A stretch of DNA of 41,498 nt from positions 1 through 41,498 of IMG/VR virus record IMGVR_UViG_3300037584_001118. One strand, given 5' to 3'. Position 1 is the first letter of the stretch. Each line of letters starts with the position of its first letter. A program made the position numbers and the translations under genes. The DNA is from a virus. This document shows, piece by piece, positions 775-27,045 of this stretch. The notes beneath the pieces are model-generated. The model was not told the origin of the DNA. It searched no databases and saw only the letters and a list, made by a program, of their open reading frames with translations.

Positions 775-1612
775 AGAAATGGATTCTTCTCTTAGCACTG
801 TTGTCACCCGCAGTAGCGAGAGCAAACACAATAACTCCTCAGTTCACACAAGGGAGTATGACCTCAACGACAACAACTACCCAAACAATTTCAGAAACAA
901 TAAATCAAGAAGTATATGGAGCCGAGGTAAAAACTTGGTCAGGAACAAATATAACTCCTTCAGGAGATATTGCAGATACTGCTACAACCTTCAGTTTGAC
1001 AACTCCCGGAGCAGACTTTCAGTTAGAGATAACAGAAAGATCAGCAGGGATAATCGAAACAATAGATACCGTACGCACAATCGACACAGATTCCACTACT
1101 ACTTCTTACTCAGTCTTCTCACAATAAGTCCAGCATACGCAGAGACAGATCCTGAGACAAATAACGTTAGCAATCCAGTGGCTGCGGCGACTGGAAACGT
1201 TACGAATCAGGCTGTCCAATTTCAGAATAATGGAGCTCCAAGTCGTCAACAGTACGGTGGAAACATAAGCTGCAACGGCAGTACTATGACCTTTTCACCT
1301 TTTTATATGGGCAACCATACAAAACCGTGGGAGATGGATGAAGAAACTGGAATGAACCCTTCTAGCTACACACTGGCTGAGAACTGGGGTTTCCAAGTTA
1401 ACTTTATGGTTCCGTTAGATAAAGAAAGTTTAAAACGATGCAGAAGTATAGCTGCACGACAAGAAGAGAAGATGCGACTCGACTACGAGTTAACGAGAGC
1501 ACTTAAATGTGCCTCATTACAAAAAACAGGTTTCACCCTAAGACCGGGAAGCAGAGTTGTGCATTTGTGCAGCGACATAATCCCAATTCAATCAACCAAA
1601 TCAAAGAAATAA
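722..1612 (+). CDS. Exported protein, start unresolved
   Basis: The open frame runs from an ATG at 722, but protein-like sequence begins only near 1079. There a signal-peptide core (YYFLLSLLTISPAYA) and a clean AYA/ET cleavage site appear, followed by about 160 residues with conserved-looking Cys, Trp and charged segments (for example RSIAARQEEKMRLDYELTRALK). The part before 1079 is Arg/Asn/Ser-rich and looks like the shadow of the overlapping exported gene at 771-1127. No ATG, GTG or TTG occurs in this frame between about 935 and the signal peptide. Translation may therefore use an unusual start, a -1 frameshift from the upstream gene, or the far ATG. The function is unknown, and export to the periplasm is likely. 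Confidence 0.6.
   Translation: MVNHQSVQWQTKINQKHEEMDSSLSTVVTRSSESKHNNSSVHTREYDLNDNNYPNNFRNNKSRSIWSRGKNLVRNKYNSFRRYCRYCYNLQFDNSRSRLSVRDNRKISRDNRNNRYRTHNRHRFHYYFLLSLLTISPAYAETDPETNNVSNPVAAATGNVTNQAVQFQNNGAPSRQQYGGNISCNGSTMTFSPFYMGNHTKPWEMDEETGMNPSSYTLAENWGFQVNFMVPLDKESLKRCRSIAARQEEKMRLDYELTRALKCASLQKTGFTLRPGSRVVHLCSDIIPIQSTKSKK
771..1127 (+). CDS. Exported protein with signal peptide, Thr/Ser-rich
   Basis: A 118-residue protein that begins with a textbook signal peptide: a Lys pair, a hydrophobic core (WILLLALLSPA) and a signal peptidase site near VARA/NT at about residue 18. The mature part is rich in Thr and Ser and free of Cys, suggesting a beta-rich extracytoplasmic protein. It overlaps the preceding gene by four bases (ATGA). 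The -1 frame is open across its whole length and leads into a second exported protein at the next entry. I know similar sequences from uncultured marine phages but no function. A role at the cell envelope during lysis, in the place where other phages carry spanins, is speculation. Confidence 0.7.
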   Translation: MKKWILLLALLSPAVARANTITPQFTQGSMTSTTTTTQTISETINQEVYGAEVKTWSGTNITPSGDIADTATTFSLTTPGADFQLEITERSAGIIETIDTVRTIDTDSTTTSYSVFSQ

Positions 1613-4654: not shown

Positions 4655-6385
4655 ATGAAAGACGTTTTAACGTCCTTACAGGGCGATTTCAAGCTGTTTC
4701 TGCAAGCATTATGGGACCAGCTTGATCTCCCTTCACCAACTAGGGCGCAATATGCCATTGCAGACTATTTACAACACGGACCTAAACGTCTACAGATCCA
4801 AGCCTTCCGAGGAGTCGGAAAAAGTTGGATTACTGGAGCGTTTGTGTTGTGGACGCTCTTCAATGACCCAGAAAAGAAAATAATGATAATTTCTGCCTCT
4901 AAGGAGAGGGCAGACAACATGAGTATCTTCTTACAAAAACTAATAATAGAAACACCATGGCTAAGTCACTTACAACCAAAGAGCGACGACGCGAGATGGT
5001 CAAGAATTTCCTTCGACGTTCTATGCTCACCTCATCAGGCACCGTCAGTCAAAAGTGTTGGTATTACTGGTCAGTTAACGGGAAGCAGGGCAGACCTGAT
5101 GATTCTGGACGACATAGAAGTTCCCGGGAACAGTATGACGGAGTTGATGCGTGAAAAGCTTCTTCAACTCTGCACCGAAGCAGAATCAATCCTTACGCCG
5201 AAAAACGATAGCCGTATTATGTATCTCGGGACTCCTCAGACTACTTTTACTATTTATCGTAAGCTGGCAAGCAGGAATTACAAACCGTTTATTTGGACCG
5301 CAAGATACCCAAGAAATAATACCCCTTACGAAGGACTTATAGCTCCACAGTTACAAGAAGACATTGATAACGGAGCTGGTCCTTGGACACCTACAGACGA
5401 TAGATTTTCAGATGATGACCTCGTTGAAAGAGAAGCGTCTATGGGACGCAGCAACTTCATGTTGCAATTTATGTTGGACACAAGTCTGTCAGACGCTGAG
5501 AAATTCCCTCTCAAAATGGCTGACCTTATTGTTACTAGCATCAATCCTACTAAAGCACCCGACAATATCGTATGGTGCTCAGATCCAAGAAACTGTCTTA
5601 AAGACTTACCCACAGTGGGCTTACCCGGTGATTACTTCTATTCGCCTATGCAGCAACAAGGTGAGTGGACTGATTACCAAGAAACCATCTGCTCAGTCGA
5701 CCCCTCAGGTAGAGGAGCCGATGAGACTGCCGCCTGCTACATCTCGCAGAAGAACGGCTTTCTATACGTACATGAGATGCGAGCCTACCGCGACGGGTAT
5801 TCAGATGCGACCTTGCTCGATATACTAAAAGGCTGCAAAAAATACAACGTAAATACACTAGTTATCGAATCTAACTTCGGTGACGGTATTGTAGCTGAGC
5901 TATTTAAAAAGCATCTACAACAAACAAAACAAAGAATACTTGTAGAAGAAGTAAGAGCTAATGTCAGAAAAGAAGATCGTATTATTGATACCCTTGAGCC
6001 TGTTCTTAATCAACATCGTCTCATTGTCAATCGCTCTCTCATCGAATGGGATTACAACTCCAATAGAGAAGCTCCTCCAGAAGAAAGACTGCTTTACATG
6101 CTCTTCTACCAAATGAGTCGTATGTGTAGACAGAAATACGCTGTCAAACATGACGATAGGTTGGACTGTTTAGCTCAAGGAGTTAAATACTACATAGATG
6201 CTCTGTCTATTTCAGCACAGGCACAGATCAACTTAAAGAAACAAGAAGAATGGTTAGATATGCTCGAACAATTCACTGATGACCCTCAAGCTGCTACTAA
6301 TCACCTTGTCCTAGGACTGGACTTAGACCAGCGTAAAGAGGCGAGAGGTAACGCAGGTAAAAAATCATACAACAACTGGGTTTAG
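4655..6385 (+). CDS. terL: Terminase large subunit (T7 gp19-like)
   Basis: A 576-residue packaging motor and headful or end-cutting nuclease. Visible elements are Walker A FRGVGKS (51-57), Walker B MILDDIE (149-155), a coupling LGTPQT (191-196), and a RNase H-fold nuclease with DPSGRG (D349), IESNFGDG (E405) and DDRLDC (D500, D501, D504). Length and order match T7 gp19 (586 residues). The protein docks on the portal and pumps DNA using ATP. The ATG at 4655 follows a 21-base gap. An 11-base string just before it (tccacattcgt) recurs upstream of the gene at 8406. Confidence 0.95.
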   Translation: MKDVLTSLQGDFKLFLQALWDQLDLPSPTRAQYAIADYLQHGPKRLQIQAFRGVGKSWITGAFVLWTLFNDPEKKIMIISASKERADNMSIFLQKLIIETPWLSHLQPKSDDARWSRISFDVLCSPHQAPSVKSVGITGQLTGSRADLMILDDIEVPGNSMTELMREKLLQLCTEAESILTPKNDSRIMYLGTPQTTFTIYRKLASRNYKPFIWTARYPRNNTPYEGLIAPQLQEDIDNGAGPWTPTDDRFSDDDLVEREASMGRSNFMLQFMLDTSLSDAEKFPLKMADLIVTSINPTKAPDNIVWCSDPRNCLKDLPTVGLPGDYFYSPMQQQGEWTDYQETICSVDPSGRGADETAACYISQKNGFLYVHEMRAYRDGYSDATLLDILKGCKKYNVNTLVIESNFGDGIVAELFKKHLQQTKQRILVEEVRANVRKEDRIIDTLEPVLNQHRLIVNRSLIEWDYNSNREAPPEERLLYMLFYQMSRMCRQKYAVKHDDRLDCLAQGVKYYIDALSISAQAQINLKKQEEWLDMLEQFTDDPQAATNHLVLGLDLDQRKEARGNAGKKSYNNWV

Positions 6386-6404
6386 AGCAAGCATGGGCTA
6401 TTAG

Positions 6405-6427
6405 GGGAGAGAAGGGTGGACTCTCCC
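6405..6427 (+). repeat. Hairpin in the terL-downstream spacer
   Basis: The spacer 6386-6496 contains a perfect seven-pair inverted repeat (GGGAGAG and CTCTCCC, nine-base loop). It also has two copies of GATATC flanking a T-rich loop at 6452-6470. Neither hairpin has a proper T-tract right after its stem, so termination is uncertain. They may be transcript-processing or attenuating structures. Confidence 0.5.
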
Positions 6428-6496
6428 TCACTAATACATAACTGTTAGCTGGATATCCCTTTTTGATATCACCTCTACCTACTTACTTTAACTAGT

Positions 6497-6766
6497 ATGG
6501 ATAATAAATTACATATAAACCATTTTAAAGAACTATATAAGAGTCTGAAGACTCCTTTCCCACCCCTGAATTGGTTAATACTTGGTATGTTGGTGGGGTT
6601 AGAACAGAGATGGGTACATCTCAAAGCAAAACAAACTGTAGATATAGCAATAGAAGAGTACCACGAGAAAATGGACGAACTAGATGAGAAAGTCTACAAA
6701 GCAGTAATAGAAGAGACAGAAGATGGTGGATTTACCATCGGTTACTTCCCGGAAGACGATGAATAA
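6497..6766 (+). CDS. Hypothetical protein, 89 residues
   Basis: An acidic protein with a short hydrophobic stretch near residues 24-35 (LNWLILGMLVGL) and a charged helical second half, ending in an acidic tail (FPEDDE). It could be peripherally membrane-associated. It lies between the large terminase and talC and overlaps a tiny downstream frame by eight bases. I do not recognise it. Confidence 0.6.
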   Translation: MDNKLHINHFKELYKSLKTPFPPLNWLILGMLVGLEQRWVHLKAKQTVDIAIEEYHEKMDELDEKVYKAVIEETEDGGFTIGYFPEDDE

Positions 6767-6839
6767 TATCGGATTAGAAATACTATTCTGGACCGTACTT
6801 ACTATGTACGTCCTCACCCGTATAGGAGTTTTTAAATGA
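6759..6839 (+). CDS. 26-residue single-span membrane peptide
   Basis: ATG 6759 to TGA 6837-6839 encodes a peptide that is almost all one hydrophobic helix (IGLEILFWTVLTMYVLTRIG). It starts inside the end of the preceding gene, and its stop overlaps the talC start (ATGA). This double coupling is the usual sign of a translated gene. The function is unknown. It might be a small membrane regulator, or serve mainly to couple translation into talC. Confidence 0.5.
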   Translation: MNNIGLEILFWTVLTMYVLTRIGVFK

Positions 6840-7492
6840 AGCTGTTCTTAGATTCAGCAATTGTTTCAGAAATAGAAGAAAGATATAAGACAGGTGTTAT
6901 CTCAGGTGTTACTACTAACCCTACTCTTATTAAACGTAGTGGTAGAGAACCTGATGATGTGTACGCTGACTTGATAGATGATGTAGGTGTAAAAGACCTT
7001 TCGATAGAAGTAGATGGTATTGATACTAATACCCTCCTTTCAAACGGTATTAAGTATGGTAAGTACTGGGTTGACCAAGCAACTATCAAACTACCTTGCA
7101 CCTACGAAGGTATAAAGGCGTGTAAAACCCTTAGCTATATGGGGTTACGTGTAAACATGACCTTAGTGTTTAGCACTGCACAAGCGATTCTATGTTCGTT
7201 AGCAGGAGCTACTTACGTCTCACCTTTTATTGGACGTTTAGACGACAATGGTGAGAATGGTATCGAACTGATTAGAGATATAGCAGCAGTGTTTTGTCAT
7301 AACAGATCAGATACAAAGATACTTGCTGCAAGCATTAGAGATGCTGAAACAGTGGGTATGGCGTTTGAAGCAGGAGCACATATTTGTACTGTTCCAACGA
7401 AGGTGTTTGATGATATGTTCAAGCATTATTTGACCGATGCAGGGCTTACTCAGTTTCTGGTCGATAGTGGACAGGCTATACATCGTTTTTAA
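6836..7492 (+). CDS. talC: Transaldolase (phage TalC type)
   Basis: A 218-residue short transaldolase of the TalC/fructose-6-phosphate aldolase type. Visible are the N-terminal LFLDSA with catalytic Asp6, GVTTNPTLI (24-32) and the Schiff-base Lys85 in TIKLP. Cyanophage TalC is known to drive carbon from the Calvin cycle toward the pentose phosphate pathway during infection, giving NADPH and ribose-phosphate for nucleotides. That role fits the ribonucleotide reductase carried here. In T7-like cyanophages talC sits at the right genome end, next to the physical terminus, and here it borders the long non-coding region. Translation is coupled to the tiny upstream membrane peptide. Confidence 0.95.
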   Translation: MKLFLDSAIVSEIEERYKTGVISGVTTNPTLIKRSGREPDDVYADLIDDVGVKDLSIEVDGIDTNTLLSNGIKYGKYWVDQATIKLPCTYEGIKACKTLSYMGLRVNMTLVFSTAQAILCSLAGATYVSPFIGRLDDNGENGIELIRDIAAVFCHNRSDTKILAASIRDAETVGMAFEAGAHICTVPTKVFDDMFKHYLTDAGLTQFLVDSGQAIHRF

Positions 7493-7540
7493 ATTTTGGC
7501 ATAAATTTCTGAGGTGTATTATATAAGTCGACGGCGGCAG

Positions 7541-7566
7541 GACTCCCCCATGGTGGGGTCTCTTTC
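7541..7566 (+). terminator. Possible terminator after talC
   Basis: A hairpin (GACTCC with GGGGTC, one G-T pair, closed by further C-G pairs) is followed by the pyrimidine run tctttct. It lies about 50 bases after talC. The T-tract is imperfect, so this is a weak call. Confidence 0.4.
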
Positions 7567-7580
7567 TAACGCGTGCGGCT

Positions 7581-7774
7581 GCCTGCGTTAATTGTCCCCG
7601 CGACTCAACTATTCGCGGCATGCACGAGGTCGGCGGATTGATAGTCCGCAGAGAACTCAGTCATAGACAGGGATCCGCTCGCTTCGCTCGCTCCCTGACC
7701 GACGAGGTGCCGAGGATTGAAACCATATCGTGCGTGAATCAATACTCGTGCGACATGCGTGCCTGCGTTAATTG
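7581..7774 (+). repeat. Pair of 14-base direct repeats, 180 bases apart
   Basis: The string gcctgcgttaattg occurs at 7581-7594 and again at 7761-7774, exactly 180 bases apart. The surrounding bases are alike in composition (both followed by a C/G-rich segment). The repeats bracket the hairpin-rich part of the non-coding region and could mark a terminal repeat or a duplicated binding site. Confidence 0.6.
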
Positions 7775-7813
7775 ATCGCGTGCAAGAGCAGCGATCTGTT
7801 GCCATGCCGAAAC

Positions 7814-7832
7814 AACAATACTATGTATTGTT
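7814..7832. promoter_or_regulatory. Perfect 19-base dyad, operator candidate
   Basis: AACAATAC and GTATTGTT form a perfect eight-base inverted repeat around TAT. A second palindrome, CCACTAGTGG, lies at 7853-7862, just before a long stem-loop and the first early gene. Spacing of about two DNA turns between arms and site suits a dimeric repressor. The phage carries two small regulators (10750 and 11082) that could bind here. No binding is shown by the sequence alone. Confidence 0.45.
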
Positions 7833-7888
7833 ACAGAATGTAAACATTGCTTCCACTAGTGGACGGTTTGGGACTAGAATGGCAAAAG

Positions 7889-7970
7889 AGAGAGAGTTGT
7901 TTTAGTTATAGTTATATTATCTCTCCCTTTAGGGTGAGAGAGATAAATATAACTTAACTACAACTCCTCT
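7889..7970. repeat. Long imperfect stem-loop upstream of the first early gene
   Basis: The 5' arm (about 7889-7929) and the 3' arm (7931-7970) are complementary over roughly 33 of 40 positions. Matched blocks include AGTTG/CAACT, TAGTTA/TAACTA, AGTTATATT/AATATAACT and ATCTCTC/GAGAGAT, with a tiny loop at the centre. It ends about 28 bases before the ATG at 7999. It could be an RNase III-type processing site in the leader, a replication element, or a cruciform near the genome end. Confidence 0.65.
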
Positions 7971-7998
7971 CAAACAGTTCAATTACCGATTTCAAATT

Positions 7999-8301
7999 AT
8001 GTTTATGATTCCTACACCTCGCTCTTCAACTTGTGTTGAAGCTATCGCAGTTAACCCTTTCACAGCTACTGCTGTGTTGAGATTCACTAAGAATGGCTAT
8101 GAGTACAAGTACTCAAACGTTAGCCGTAAAAAGATTCTTAATCTTTTACTCAACCCAAACATGAGCTTCGGGTTCTGGGTTCAGGATCTAGTCAAGAACG
8201 CAGTTCTTGAGTTTAACGACGAGGTTAGAAACACTGGCAAGCTTAGCTATAAGCTAATCGGTGCTACTTACAACAGTAAGCAAGCCTTACAACTAGCGTA
8301 G
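7999..8301 (+). CDS. KTSC-like domain protein
   Basis: A 100-residue protein with the pattern SSTCVEAIAVNPFTATAVLR, then FTKNGYEYKYSNVSRKKIL and SFGFWVQDLVKN. This matches the KTSC domain layout (a Ser/Val start, beta strands ending in Y-x-Y-x-x-V, then a helix and S-x-G). The domain occurs in small phage and bacterial proteins. Some are linked to lysyl-tRNA synthetase, which gives the name, but its function is not settled. This is the first gene after the long stem-loop, so it is probably expressed early. Its stop lies at the edge of a tRNA-like segment. Confidence 0.65.
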   Translation: MFMIPTPRSSTCVEAIAVNPFTATAVLRFTKNGYEYKYSNVSRKKILNLLLNPNMSFGFWVQDLVKNAVLEFNDEVRNTGKLSYKLIGATYNSKQALQLA

Positions 8302-8356
8302 CTAGTTAGAGCGTCTGGGTCTTCACTTGCGGTTCAACTCCGCAAGGACGCCGTTG
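8299..8356 (+). other. tRNA-like segment (degenerate tRNA or mimic)
   Basis: The segment starts with a D-arm-like TAGCTAGTTAGAGC. It contains a perfect T-arm-like hairpin, with CTTGCGG and CCGCAAG around the loop TTCAACT, which fits the TTCRANY consensus. GCGTC (8312-8316) can pair with GACGC just after the T-arm. There is no anticodon stem, and the D-loop is too short for a functional tRNA. It may be a decayed tRNA, a tRNA-like RNA element, or chance. It occupies most of the 104-base gap between two early genes. Confidence 0.4.
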
Positions 8357-8405
8357 ACTAACAGTTACACTGTTTAGTCATTCTGTCCACATTCGTCCAC
8401 ACTTT

Positions 8406-9176
8406 ATGACTGTCCACATCACACCTAAATCCAGTAACAGCAAGGTCGGACGCCTAATGGTCACGACCAGCTCACAACAATCCTGTCCAACAACATGCCC
8501 ACACTATCAAACAACTTGCTACGCAAGTTCTGGCTTTCACTTAAACCAGCACTGGCAAAAAGTCACATCAGGCGAGAGAGGTGGTTCTTGGTCTGACTTA
8601 ACCAATAAGGTTAAGACTCTCAAAGCCGGTACTATGTACCGCCATAATCAAGCCGGTGATCTTTTCTACGATACCGATGAGCAAGGACGCGAGCTAATAA
8701 CTTTAGCTATGCTAAAAGAATTAGTTGATGCTAACAAATCCAGTGGTGCCAAGGGTTATACATACACACACCACAAGCTAGATTATGTTCATAATCTCGA
8801 GGCTGTGAAGTATGCAAACCGTAATGGCTTTACTGTCAATGGTTCTACTGAGTCTTTGACTCAAGCTGATGATGTAGTGAATGCTGGTGTACCAGCTGTA
8901 ACTATTATTCCAACTGACCATGAAAAGATAGAATCTTTTAAATCAGTAGATCCCAGCGACGGTAAGAAAAAAGAACTCTTTAGAGTTAAAGGTAAGATCA
9001 CAACACCACAAGGACGCCGCGTAGTAGTTTGCCCAGCACAACAGGCACATCCAAACAAGTGCGAAACTTGTAAGCTATGCACAAAAGCTGACCGTGACTA
9101 CGTTATAGCATTCGTAGCTCATGGAAATAAAAAGAAAGTTCTTAATGCTAAACTGTCCACTATCGTACCAAACTAA
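8406..9176 (+). CDS. Cys-rich phage protein of unknown function
   Basis: A 256-residue protein with two Cys clusters: CPTTCPHYQTTCYA near residues 27-40, and C..QQAHPNKCETCKLC near 207-222. The spacing suggests a bound zinc ion or an iron-sulfur cluster. The middle has conserved-looking aromatic and charged segments (TMYRHNQAGDLFYD; TYTHHKLDY). It resembles a phage family known to me only as unknown function (gp88-like or DUF7227-like), which I could not check. It is preceded by a gtccac-rich leader and followed by a TAATG overlap. It belongs to the early block and could be a host-takeover or nucleic-acid-modifying enzyme, but that is a guess. Confidence 0.7.
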   Translation: MTVHITPKSSNSKVGRLMVTTSSQQSCPTTCPHYQTTCYASSGFHLNQHWQKVTSGERGGSWSDLTNKVKTLKAGTMYRHNQAGDLFYDTDEQGRELITLAMLKELVDANKSSGAKGYTYTHHKLDYVHNLEAVKYANRNGFTVNGSTESLTQADDVVNAGVPAVTIIPTDHEKIESFKSVDPSDGKKKELFRVKGKITTPQGRRVVVCPAQQAHPNKCETCKLCTKADRDYVIAFVAHGNKKKVLNAKLSTIVPN

Positions 9177-9328
9177 TGCACAAACACTTATACGTGATCT
9201 ACAAGGACGATCACACAGACACAAGTCATATCAATGACTTAACCCATGCCAATCTTATATCTAAAGGATATAAAGTTATACATTCTGAGGCTGGTTATAC
9301 ATCAACTAGGGTTGAATACCAAAAGTAG
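9176..9328 (+). CDS. Hypothetical protein, 50 residues
   Basis: ATG 9176 shares the TAATG with the preceding stop, and the frame ends TAG 9326-9328. The product (MHKHLYVIYKDDHTDTSHIN, later GYKVIHSEAGYTSTRVEYQK) has alternating polar and hydrophobic residues, suggesting a small alpha-beta fold. It is unknown and probably co-translated with the Cys-rich protein. Confidence 0.6.
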   Translation: MHKHLYVIYKDDHTDTSHINDLTHANLISKGYKVIHSEAGYTSTRVEYQK

Positions 9329-9362
9329 TTAAGTTATAAGTGTAAACAATAAGAACGCAAAG

Positions 9363-9405
9363 CCCAGTCTATGACTGGGTTCTTGCCATTTTTATTTTTT
9401 CCACA
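9363..9405 (+). terminator. Likely terminator
   Basis: A perfect seven-pair stem (CCCAGTC and GACTGGG, loop TAT) is followed by ttcttgcc and then a T-rich run. The T-tract starts late, so efficiency is uncertain. The site fits the end of the 7999-9328 gene group. Confidence 0.5.
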
Positions 9406-9487
9406 ATCATTCACAATCAAGGACGCCACACTCATATTCACAATCAGCATTACACAATCATCACACTCAAGGACGCAAGGACGCATT
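9401..9487 (+). repeat. Iteron-like repeats ahead of an early gene
   Basis: This 87-base stretch contains CACAATCA four times (near 9403, 9413, 9442 and 9455), the variants CACACTCA twice, and GGACGC three times, the last two only seven bases apart and ending just before ATG 9488. A single CACAATCA followed by GGGACGCAATG recurs at 10114-10136, just before another early gene. Such clustered short repeats are typical of binding sites for a replication or regulatory protein. Confidence 0.55.
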
Positions 9488-9799
9488 ATGTCATTTCAAT
9501 TTGGACCACCACCCGACCCAGACAAGGACGGGATCATGGAATGCCACCACTACCGCCAAGCAGTAGACGACTATGACAAGGACGGTGGACTATTTACAGG
9601 CGAGCCAATGCTCAAGCATTGGTTTGTTCTTAACGCATGCGACGTCATCTTAGGCGAGGACGCATTCTACAAATACTCACCACGCGAGCTATTTGAAAAG
9701 CTAGAAGAAATGAGTACATCACACGAAGAGTACACCAACATGCAGGAATGCAGGGACGCTCGCGAAGTACACGAACTAATGAACCCATCACCATTATGA
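9488..9799 (+). CDS. Early hypothetical acidic protein
   Basis: A 103-residue protein from ATG 9488, chosen because the longer frame upstream runs through the repeat array. It starts MSFQFGPPPDPDKDGIMECH and has many Asp/Glu and His/Cys residues and helical segments (SPRELFEKLEEM). It ends in ATGA, which starts the next gene. No family is recognised. Its location between a terminator and the lysogeny-like module suggests early expression and possibly host takeover. Confidence 0.6.
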   Translation: MSFQFGPPPDPDKDGIMECHHYRQAVDDYDKDGGLFTGEPMLKHWFVLNACDVILGEDAFYKYSPRELFEKLEEMSTSHEEYTNMQECRDAREVHELMNPSPL

Positions 9800-10002
9800 C
9801 TGAATACGACGACCTACTCAAACAAGCAGAGGAGCACAACAGAAAACTCCACCGCACAAAAGACATCAACGTTGCCGACTGTCTCACATATGAAGACAGA
9901 GACGCAATCGCAAAGATAGTAGACAAACGCGTTGCCGAGGTATGGGGTGATATGTACCCATTTAAGTGGCAATTTAGCTGCTCTGGTCACTTTATCTGCT
10001 AA
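9796..10002 (+). CDS. Early hypothetical protein, 68 residues
   Basis: ATG 9796 overlaps the previous stop. The product begins with a helical, charged region (MTEYDDLLKQAEEHNRKLHR), continues CLTYEDRDAIAKIVDKRVAE, and ends with an aromatic, Cys-containing tail (FSCSGHFIC). It is unknown. A 131-base gap follows that contains short inverted repeats and one copy of the CACAATCA-GGACGC element. Confidence 0.6.
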   Translation: MTEYDDLLKQAEEHNRKLHRTKDINVADCLTYEDRDAIAKIVDKRVAEVWGDMYPFKWQFSCSGHFIC

Positions 10003-26987: not shown

Positions 26988-27045
26988 GTCCGTTCATCCC
27001 CAATCAGGGGACGCATGAATCTTAGGCATGGAACGGGGTCTAAGT
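26988..27045 (+). ncRNA. Glutamine riboswitch candidate (Downstream-peptide / glnA type)
   Basis: P1 is CCGTTC (26990-26995) with GAACGG (27031-27036). P2 is CCCC (26998-27001) with GGGG (27007-27010), loop aatca. These are followed by GACGCATGAATC and the junction sequence TTAGGCATG. The order CGTTCA, P2, GACG..., GGAACG is that of the L-glutamine-binding Downstream-peptide/glnA RNA class known from Synechococcus, Prochlorococcus and cyanophages. That class precedes a short peptide gene, and one lies 15 bases downstream here. Recognition is by eye and memory. Confidence 0.7.

Follow-up and report, generated by a model that had tools for sequence, protein, structure and literature searches.

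Genomic Context of the talC–Early Gene Interval

The window analyzed here, i.e., the whole 41,498-nt stretch of IMG/VR record IMGVR_UViG_3300037584_001118, is a contig from a T7-like cyanopodovirus in circularly permuted form. Among annotated relatives, Prochlorococcus phage P-GSP1 is the closest over positions 6000–10000 (75% identity across 73% of the query). The stretch under study is the gap between the end of talC (stop at 7492) and the start of the first early ORF (7999), which agrees with its placement in the first-pass annotation. It consists of two adjacent elements, a GC-rich predicted terminal repeat followed by an AT-rich leader hairpin. The features of this region are as follows:

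4655–6385, rightward: terminase gene
6497–6766, rightward: small ORF
6836–7492, rightward: talC
7500–7519, plus strand: left-edge box CATAAATTTCTGA (7500–7512) with the following 7 nt, immediately left of the predicted repeat, as in the reference phages
7520–7793, no strand assigned: predicted direct terminal repeat of 274 bp, called from the edge motifs, a GC content of 58% and a position homologous to the mapped P-SSP7 repeat
7546–7558, no strand assigned: palindrome CCCC-ATGGT-GGGG near the left end of the repeat
7580–7594, plus strand: 15-nt direct repeat TGCCTGCGTTAATTG, copy 1
7760–7774, plus strand: the same 15-nt direct repeat, copy 2
7794–7800, plus strand: ATCTGTT at the right repeat edge, a probable signal of the class II or concatemer-junction type for a single-subunit RNA polymerase
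7875–7880, plus strand: sigma70-like -10 box TAGAAT, directly before the hairpin
7888–7971, plus strand: long imperfect, AT-rich hairpin (about 35 bp) with which the first early transcript is predicted to begin
7921–7942, plus strand: apical core of the hairpin, CTCTCC-CTTTAG-GGTGAGAGAG, with TCTC and GGTGAG invariant across all 52 aligned rows
7999–8301, plus strand: first early ORF downstream of the hairpin (100 aa, phrog_7365, function unknown)

The ORF at 8406–9176 (plus strand, 256 aa) matches Pfam DUF7227 (261 bits) and phrog_2554, and its function is unknown. Sequences resembling tRNA halves, with GGTTCAAnTCC T-arm look-alikes, are present after the leader or first ORF at about 8308–8352, and also at about 620–650 and 1020–1046 of the P-SSP7 record. 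ARAGORN finds no tRNA in the window, and a tRNA or tmRNA reading was rejected as none was found. When the whole window is searched with Rfam covariance models, the single match at gathering score is a distant glutamine-II riboswitch at 26988–27045 (plus strand), which exceeds that score with 53.8 bits; matches to SNORA41 and CRISPR-DR9 were rejected as weak and far under their gathering scores.

The GC-Rich Block and Its Stems

The block at 7525–7793 has a GC content of 58.4%, compared with 39.5% for the window, 40% for the left flank and 35% for the right flank, bearing out the earlier remark that its composition is unlike that of the flanks. In a scan at 3-nt steps, none of the other 269-nt stretches of the window exceeds this GC content. 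Stems are located at 7546–7558 (CCCCATGGTGGGG), 7567–7590, 7598–7618, 7633–7649 and 7774–7796. In 7535–7795, perfect stems of at least 5 bp number five against 2.1 expected (11 of 300 shuffles reach five), and those of at least 6 bp number two against 0.6 expected (40 of 300 shuffles reach two). The first-pass annotation had counted at least four perfect stems in about 260 bases; the stems are indeed present, but exceed only modestly what the composition predicts.

The same annotation had considered that these stems could belong to a structured non-coding RNA. Several short perfect stems do occur in the block, as this idea would have it. However, the folding energy of the block as RNA is matched by dinucleotide shuffles (z = −0.56; equalled or bettered by 52 of 200), for which reason the idea was rejected, and no Rfam family other than the distant riboswitch reaches gathering score in the window. 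A non-coding RNA built from the GC-rich stems is thus barely credible. The suggestion of a structured RNA is supported instead for the AT-rich hairpin at 7888–7971, just to the right of the block, which lies within the interval annotated at first pass but outside the GC-rich cluster described there.

C-run/G-run palindromes similar to that at 7546–7558 occur at the corresponding place in P-SSP7, P-GSP1, P-SSP2 and the metagenomic relatives listed. Relatives carry the 15-nt repeat sequence in either orientation. In the presumed terminal repeat of P-SSP2 (about 2644–2720 of locus L005), three GATCAATTAACGC-type repeats are present in the orientation opposite to that of the two copies in the window.

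Edge Motifs and the Predicted Terminal Repeat

The terminal repeats of T7, T3, P-SSP7, Syn5, SP6 and phiKMV were read directly from both ends of the records, and are 160, 231, 206 and 237 bp long in T7, T3, P-SSP7 and Syn5, respectively. All four of the latter phages have A[T/C]CTGTT starting from the first base after the repeat, and a CAtAAA..TCTGA box plus exactly 7 nt ending in TA at the left edge. This left-edge box resembles CATAAAAATCTGA, and the Syn5 variant has TGTGA. In SP6, the right-hand motif is shifted by one base and the left side is different; in phiKMV, neither edge motif is found at the repeat. The block in the window is flanked by both motifs common to the mapped repeats, except that the 7 nt before the left cut end in AT, not TA, so that the left end may shift by a few nt.

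Conservation of the edges was surveyed in 67 contigs carrying a relative of the early ORF, 59 of which have at least 900 nt upstream (the other eight were left out). Both edges are present within the 900 nt upstream in 48 of the 59 contigs, where the predicted repeats span 209–289 bp with a GC content of 0.56–0.61 inside, compared with 0.33–0.41 to the right. One or both edges are missing within 900 nt in the remaining 11 (L014, L040, L061, L063–L066, L068, L073, L075 and L076). The end of contig IMGVR_UViG_3300002488_002860 falls exactly on the predicted right edge, and contig L022 starts about 3 nt or less from the predicted left edge; the ends of other contigs that terminate between talC and the early gene coincide with neither edge.

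The ends of P-SSP7 have been sequenced from virion DNA, revealing a 206-bp direct repeat directly downstream of talC (PMC3350473). As judged from sequence comparison, the GC block at about 7520–7793, present as a single copy in the circularly permuted contig, is very probably a direct terminal repeat of the T7 type, that is, a predicted genome end: it follows the last late gene (talC) and precedes the first early gene, in a position homologous to the mapped P-SSP7 repeat, and both shared edge motifs flank it. The first-pass expectation of genome termini at this place is thereby well supported by comparison. In the particle, the repeat would stand once at each end, and replication would join genomes through it, as can be surmised from T7 and P-SSP7. 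The two-edge rule, together with the unique sense ATCTGTT, would allow end-calling from sequence in many uncultured T7-like phages, and is useful where assembly hides the genome ends.

ATCTGTT as a Probable Signal for the Phage RNA Polymerase

The ATCTGTT at 7794–7800 is the only sense-strand copy in the 41,498 bases of the window. Likewise, T7, T3, Syn5 and SP6 each have exactly one sense-strand copy, always at the repeat edge; P-SSP7 has none (the edge reads ACCTGTT), phiKMV has one located elsewhere, and CRP-1 has 16 on the plus strand. ATCTGTT is described as the class II terminator/pause consensus of T7 RNA polymerase, and occurs also in the phage DNA concatemer junction (PMC11617373). 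T7 and Syn5 polymerases are reported to yield terminated products on a cas9 template, the T7 stop being 9 nt past ATCTGTT (PMC9624206).

In sense coding sequence, ATCTGT is absent, with 0 copies observed and 29.4 expected from synonymous shuffling (0 of 60 shuffles reach 0), as counted in 160 open frames of at least 150 codons, some of which are not genes, from 28 hand-chosen cyanopodovirus-type loci (162 kb). In the same 162 kb, the permuted control words ATCAGT and ATGTCT are at expectation. The depletion is confined to one strand, with 0 sense versus 169 antisense copies in the coding sequence of cyanopodovirus-type loci. In CRP-type phage loci (the four records tested have no T7-like polymerase), ATCTGT occurs 15 times, with 11.6 expected. 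For individual phages, the purge is clear in Syn5, P-SSP7 and the window (0 versus 4.6–6.0 expected; 0 of 60 shuffles), weak in T7, T3 and SP6, and not seen in phiKMV. A sense strand free of ATCTGT save at the junction is the pattern that a signal read by a polymerase would demand. ATCTGTT is thus probably read by the phage RNA polymerase.

It is improbable that ATCTGTT serves solely as a recognition or cleavage sequence of terminase, unrelated to RNA polymerase. Such a role would fit the position of the motif, which begins immediately after the cut in T7, T3 and Syn5, and, as ACCTGTT, in P-SSP7; however, a terminase reading double-stranded DNA does not explain a purge restricted to the sense strand, and the terminated products of the T7 and Syn5 polymerases arose on an ATCTGTT-bearing template (PMC9624206).

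For efficient termination by T7 RNA polymerase, a T-run downstream of the class II signal is reported (PMC11617373). No T-run follows ATCTGTT in the window (GCCATGCC), in P-SSP7 (GCTTAATC) or at the T7 junction (ACAGTC), suggesting a pause rather than a full terminator. The phage RNA polymerase would pause or terminate at the junction ATCTGTT at 7794 (GCGATCTGTTGCC), as T7 RNA polymerase does at its own. A packaging role of the junction pause is known for T7, and in the window the pause would mark the place of packaging and right-end cleavage. Polymerase pausing at the concatemer junction is thus suggested to be common to enterobacterial phages and those of the most abundant cyanobacteria in the ocean, and the total lack of ATCTGT in the coding sequence examined provides a clean, testable footprint.

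The reverse complement ACAGAT is enriched compared with synonymous shuffles in sense coding sequence of cyanopodoviruses (169 versus 85.7) and of CRP-1 (35 versus 24.6); a reading of this enrichment as antisense stop signals was dropped because CRP-1 shows it too.

A Conserved Hairpin in the Predicted Early Leader

The hairpin at 7888–7971 is more stable than its shuffles (z = −6.4; 0 of 200), and is mainly responsible for the better folding of the whole stretch (z = −4.9; 0 of 100). It also folds with DNA energies (z = −7.25). Its core is found in P-SSP7, P-GSP1, P-SSP2 and P-SSP3, and, with about 92–94% identity over 47 nt, in the Roseobacter phages CRP-1 and CRP-345. A search of IMG/VR with the hairpin pattern gave at least 119 stretches, many of which are chance matches; 67 distinct copies, taken from public phage records and the IMG/VR matches listed, were kept, and seven unrelated-looking loci (L151, L142, L097, L155, L124, L083 and L177) were dropped by hand, some of which passed z < −2.

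RNAalifold on the MAFFT alignments A1 and A2 yielded only 7 and 12 pairs, respectively, with the arms misaligned, and was therefore replaced by an alignment-free arm-swap test. Among 15 diverged representatives, own arms pair with a mean of −25.7 kcal/mol, compared with −11.4 kcal/mol for foreign right arms, and 0 of 100,000 re-matchings equal the former value. When 17 cyanopodovirus representatives alone are used, the values are −22.2 and −16.7 kcal/mol (0 of 100,000). Own arms thus pair far better than swapped arms, indicating joint change of the two. Pairing could also be maintained by template-switch repair of quasi-palindromes, but unpaired bases are retained in the arms of all 67 copies.

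A covariance model with 12 pairs only (R1), used for detection alone, matches the window, P-SSP7, CRP-1 and CRP-345, and gives no match in T7, T3, Syn5, SP6 or phiKMV. The hairpin matches no Rfam covariance model at gathering score, and plasmids give no match to a 53-nt hairpin query. The literature searched, whose coverage leaves out most subscription journals, yielded no account of this hairpin, nor one of ATCTGTT at the termini of cyanophages. The terminal repeat is an element of a known kind; the hairpin is apparently undescribed.

The position of the hairpin is conserved as well. In CRP-1 and CRP-345, it precedes the first rightward gene, and joining the ends of the CRP-1 record places it immediately ahead of gp01. 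CRP-type contigs have 3–14 nt between the end of the stem and the start codon, in most cases with an AAAGGA-like ribosome site. T7-like polymerase is absent from CRP-1, CRP-345 and two CRP-type contigs, and ATCTGTT was not flagged within 400 nt of the CRP-type hairpin copies, among those listed. The hairpin thus tracks the early leader and not the genome end. With arms that coevolve and a place before the first gene, it is very probably a selected leader element.

L061 and its relatives, a diverged cyanopodovirus group, contain two such hairpins about 625 nt apart (2516–2617 and 3141–3242 of L061). In contig L183, the same core is found in a 39-bp hairpin (893–993, minus strand) that is nearly perfectly paired (−72 kcal/mol). 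In CRP-type loci such as L099, L108 and L111, a conserved GTGAAACGGCACGGGCAGAGGATCAC-like element lies about 60–100 nt upstream of the hairpin core.

Possible Functions of the Hairpin

In 44 of the 67 copies, a -10-like hexamer begins no more than 15 nt ahead of the stem base, as scored with a loose pattern that has no shuffle control; 23 copies, including all 14 of the CRP type, have none. Where such a box is present, transcription would begin at the stem base. In the window, a host sigma70-type promoter (-10 box at 7875–7880) should start the first early transcript there, and the 5' end of the RNA would be locked into a stem of about 35 bp, whose invariant tip is probably read by a conserved factor. 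The likeliest job of the hairpin would be to shield early mRNA from 5'-end-dependent decay by RNase E, or to provide a defined RNase III processing site. Of these, shielding by a 5'-terminal stem is tentatively favored. The hairpin occurs in a system in which host RNase E is reported to be induced on infection by P-SSP7 (PMC9692554). The substrate preference of cyanobacterial RNase E is reported to resemble that of the E. coli enzyme, for which a 5' monophosphate end is required for efficient cleavage of most substrates (PMC10989914).

The long imperfect stem, the unpaired arm bases in 67 of 67 copies and the location in the leader, ahead of the first gene, in both cyanopodoviruses and CRP-type phages would also be consistent with an RNase III processing site of the early transcript, comparable to the R-sites of T7, instead of a shield for a primary 5' end. 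This seems rather unlikely, as a -10-like box right at the stem base in 44 of the 67 copies leaves little upstream RNA to cut off, and RNase III sites are not known to need an invariant tip sequence.

A role as DNA, in which a cruciform or fold-back would aid formation of the left genome end or initiation of replication, is also to be weighed, since a hairpin end has been proposed on T7 concatemers. The hairpin is located about 95 nt from the repeat edge, its favorable folding with DNA energies would suit such a role, and its top-strand tips are mostly of the TTTA or GNA/GNNA types, which are stable in DNA hairpins. Nearly all pairs are Watson–Crick, and the G–U pairs show no strand bias; with 19 G–U versus 12 A–C pairs counted in the hairpin copies, pairing does not decide between action as RNA and as DNA. 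Action as DNA is nonetheless doubtful, because CRP-1 and CRP-345 carry the hairpin before the first rightward gene without a T7-type RNA polymerase, ATCTGTT was not flagged near the CRP-type copies listed, and T7, T3, Syn5 and SP6 share the right-edge motif but give no match to the hairpin.

A more speculative proposal is that the copies constitute a new family of portable 5'-leader RNA hairpins: in unrelated marine phages, both T7-like phages of cyanobacteria and Roseobacter phages lacking a T7-type polymerase, hairpins with the same tip (TCTC...GGTGAG) and coevolving arms at the start of the first early transcript might capture a conserved host factor (an RNase, the ribosome or an RNA-binding protein) to protect or prioritize early mRNA. 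The leader hairpin is a conserved RNA-like element that has no curated family and bridges unrelated phages.

Comparison With Known Systems

As a whole, the stretch is likely to comprise the concatemer junction of a T7-like cyanopodovirus and, after it, the leader of the leftmost early operon. Like the mapped 206-bp repeat of P-SSP7, the predicted repeat in the window is GC-rich, lies directly downstream of talC, is preceded by CA.AAA..TCTGA plus 7 nt, is followed at the first base by A[T/C]CTGTTG, and contains a C-run/G-run palindrome. Unlike that repeat, it is about 274 bp long with ends that are predicted only, its inner sequence is diverged, and it has ATCTGTTG where P-SSP7 has ACCTGTTG.

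Like T7 and T3, the window has ATCTGTT at the first base after the repeat, predicted in the window, as a single sense-strand copy in the genome, and the left box CA[T/C]AAAAATCTGA plus 7 nt. Unlike in the window, T7 and T3 have a different host, repeat sequence and leader, and neither matches the hairpin model.

The hairpin before gp01 of CRP-1 and CRP-345 lies, as in the window, in the leader of the first rightward gene; the arm sequences differ, however, and a T7-type RNA polymerase is absent. Unlike in the window, a Shine–Dalgarno-like AAAGGA comes straight after the stem in CRP-type contigs.

Stem-loops of the ompA type at the 5' end stabilize bacterial mRNAs, and T7 early mRNA has RNase III R-sites. 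Like both of these, the element described here is a long hairpin in a predicted transcript leader. Unlike them, it has an invariant tip and coevolving arms common to unrelated cyanobacterial and Roseobacter phages, and belongs to no Rfam family.
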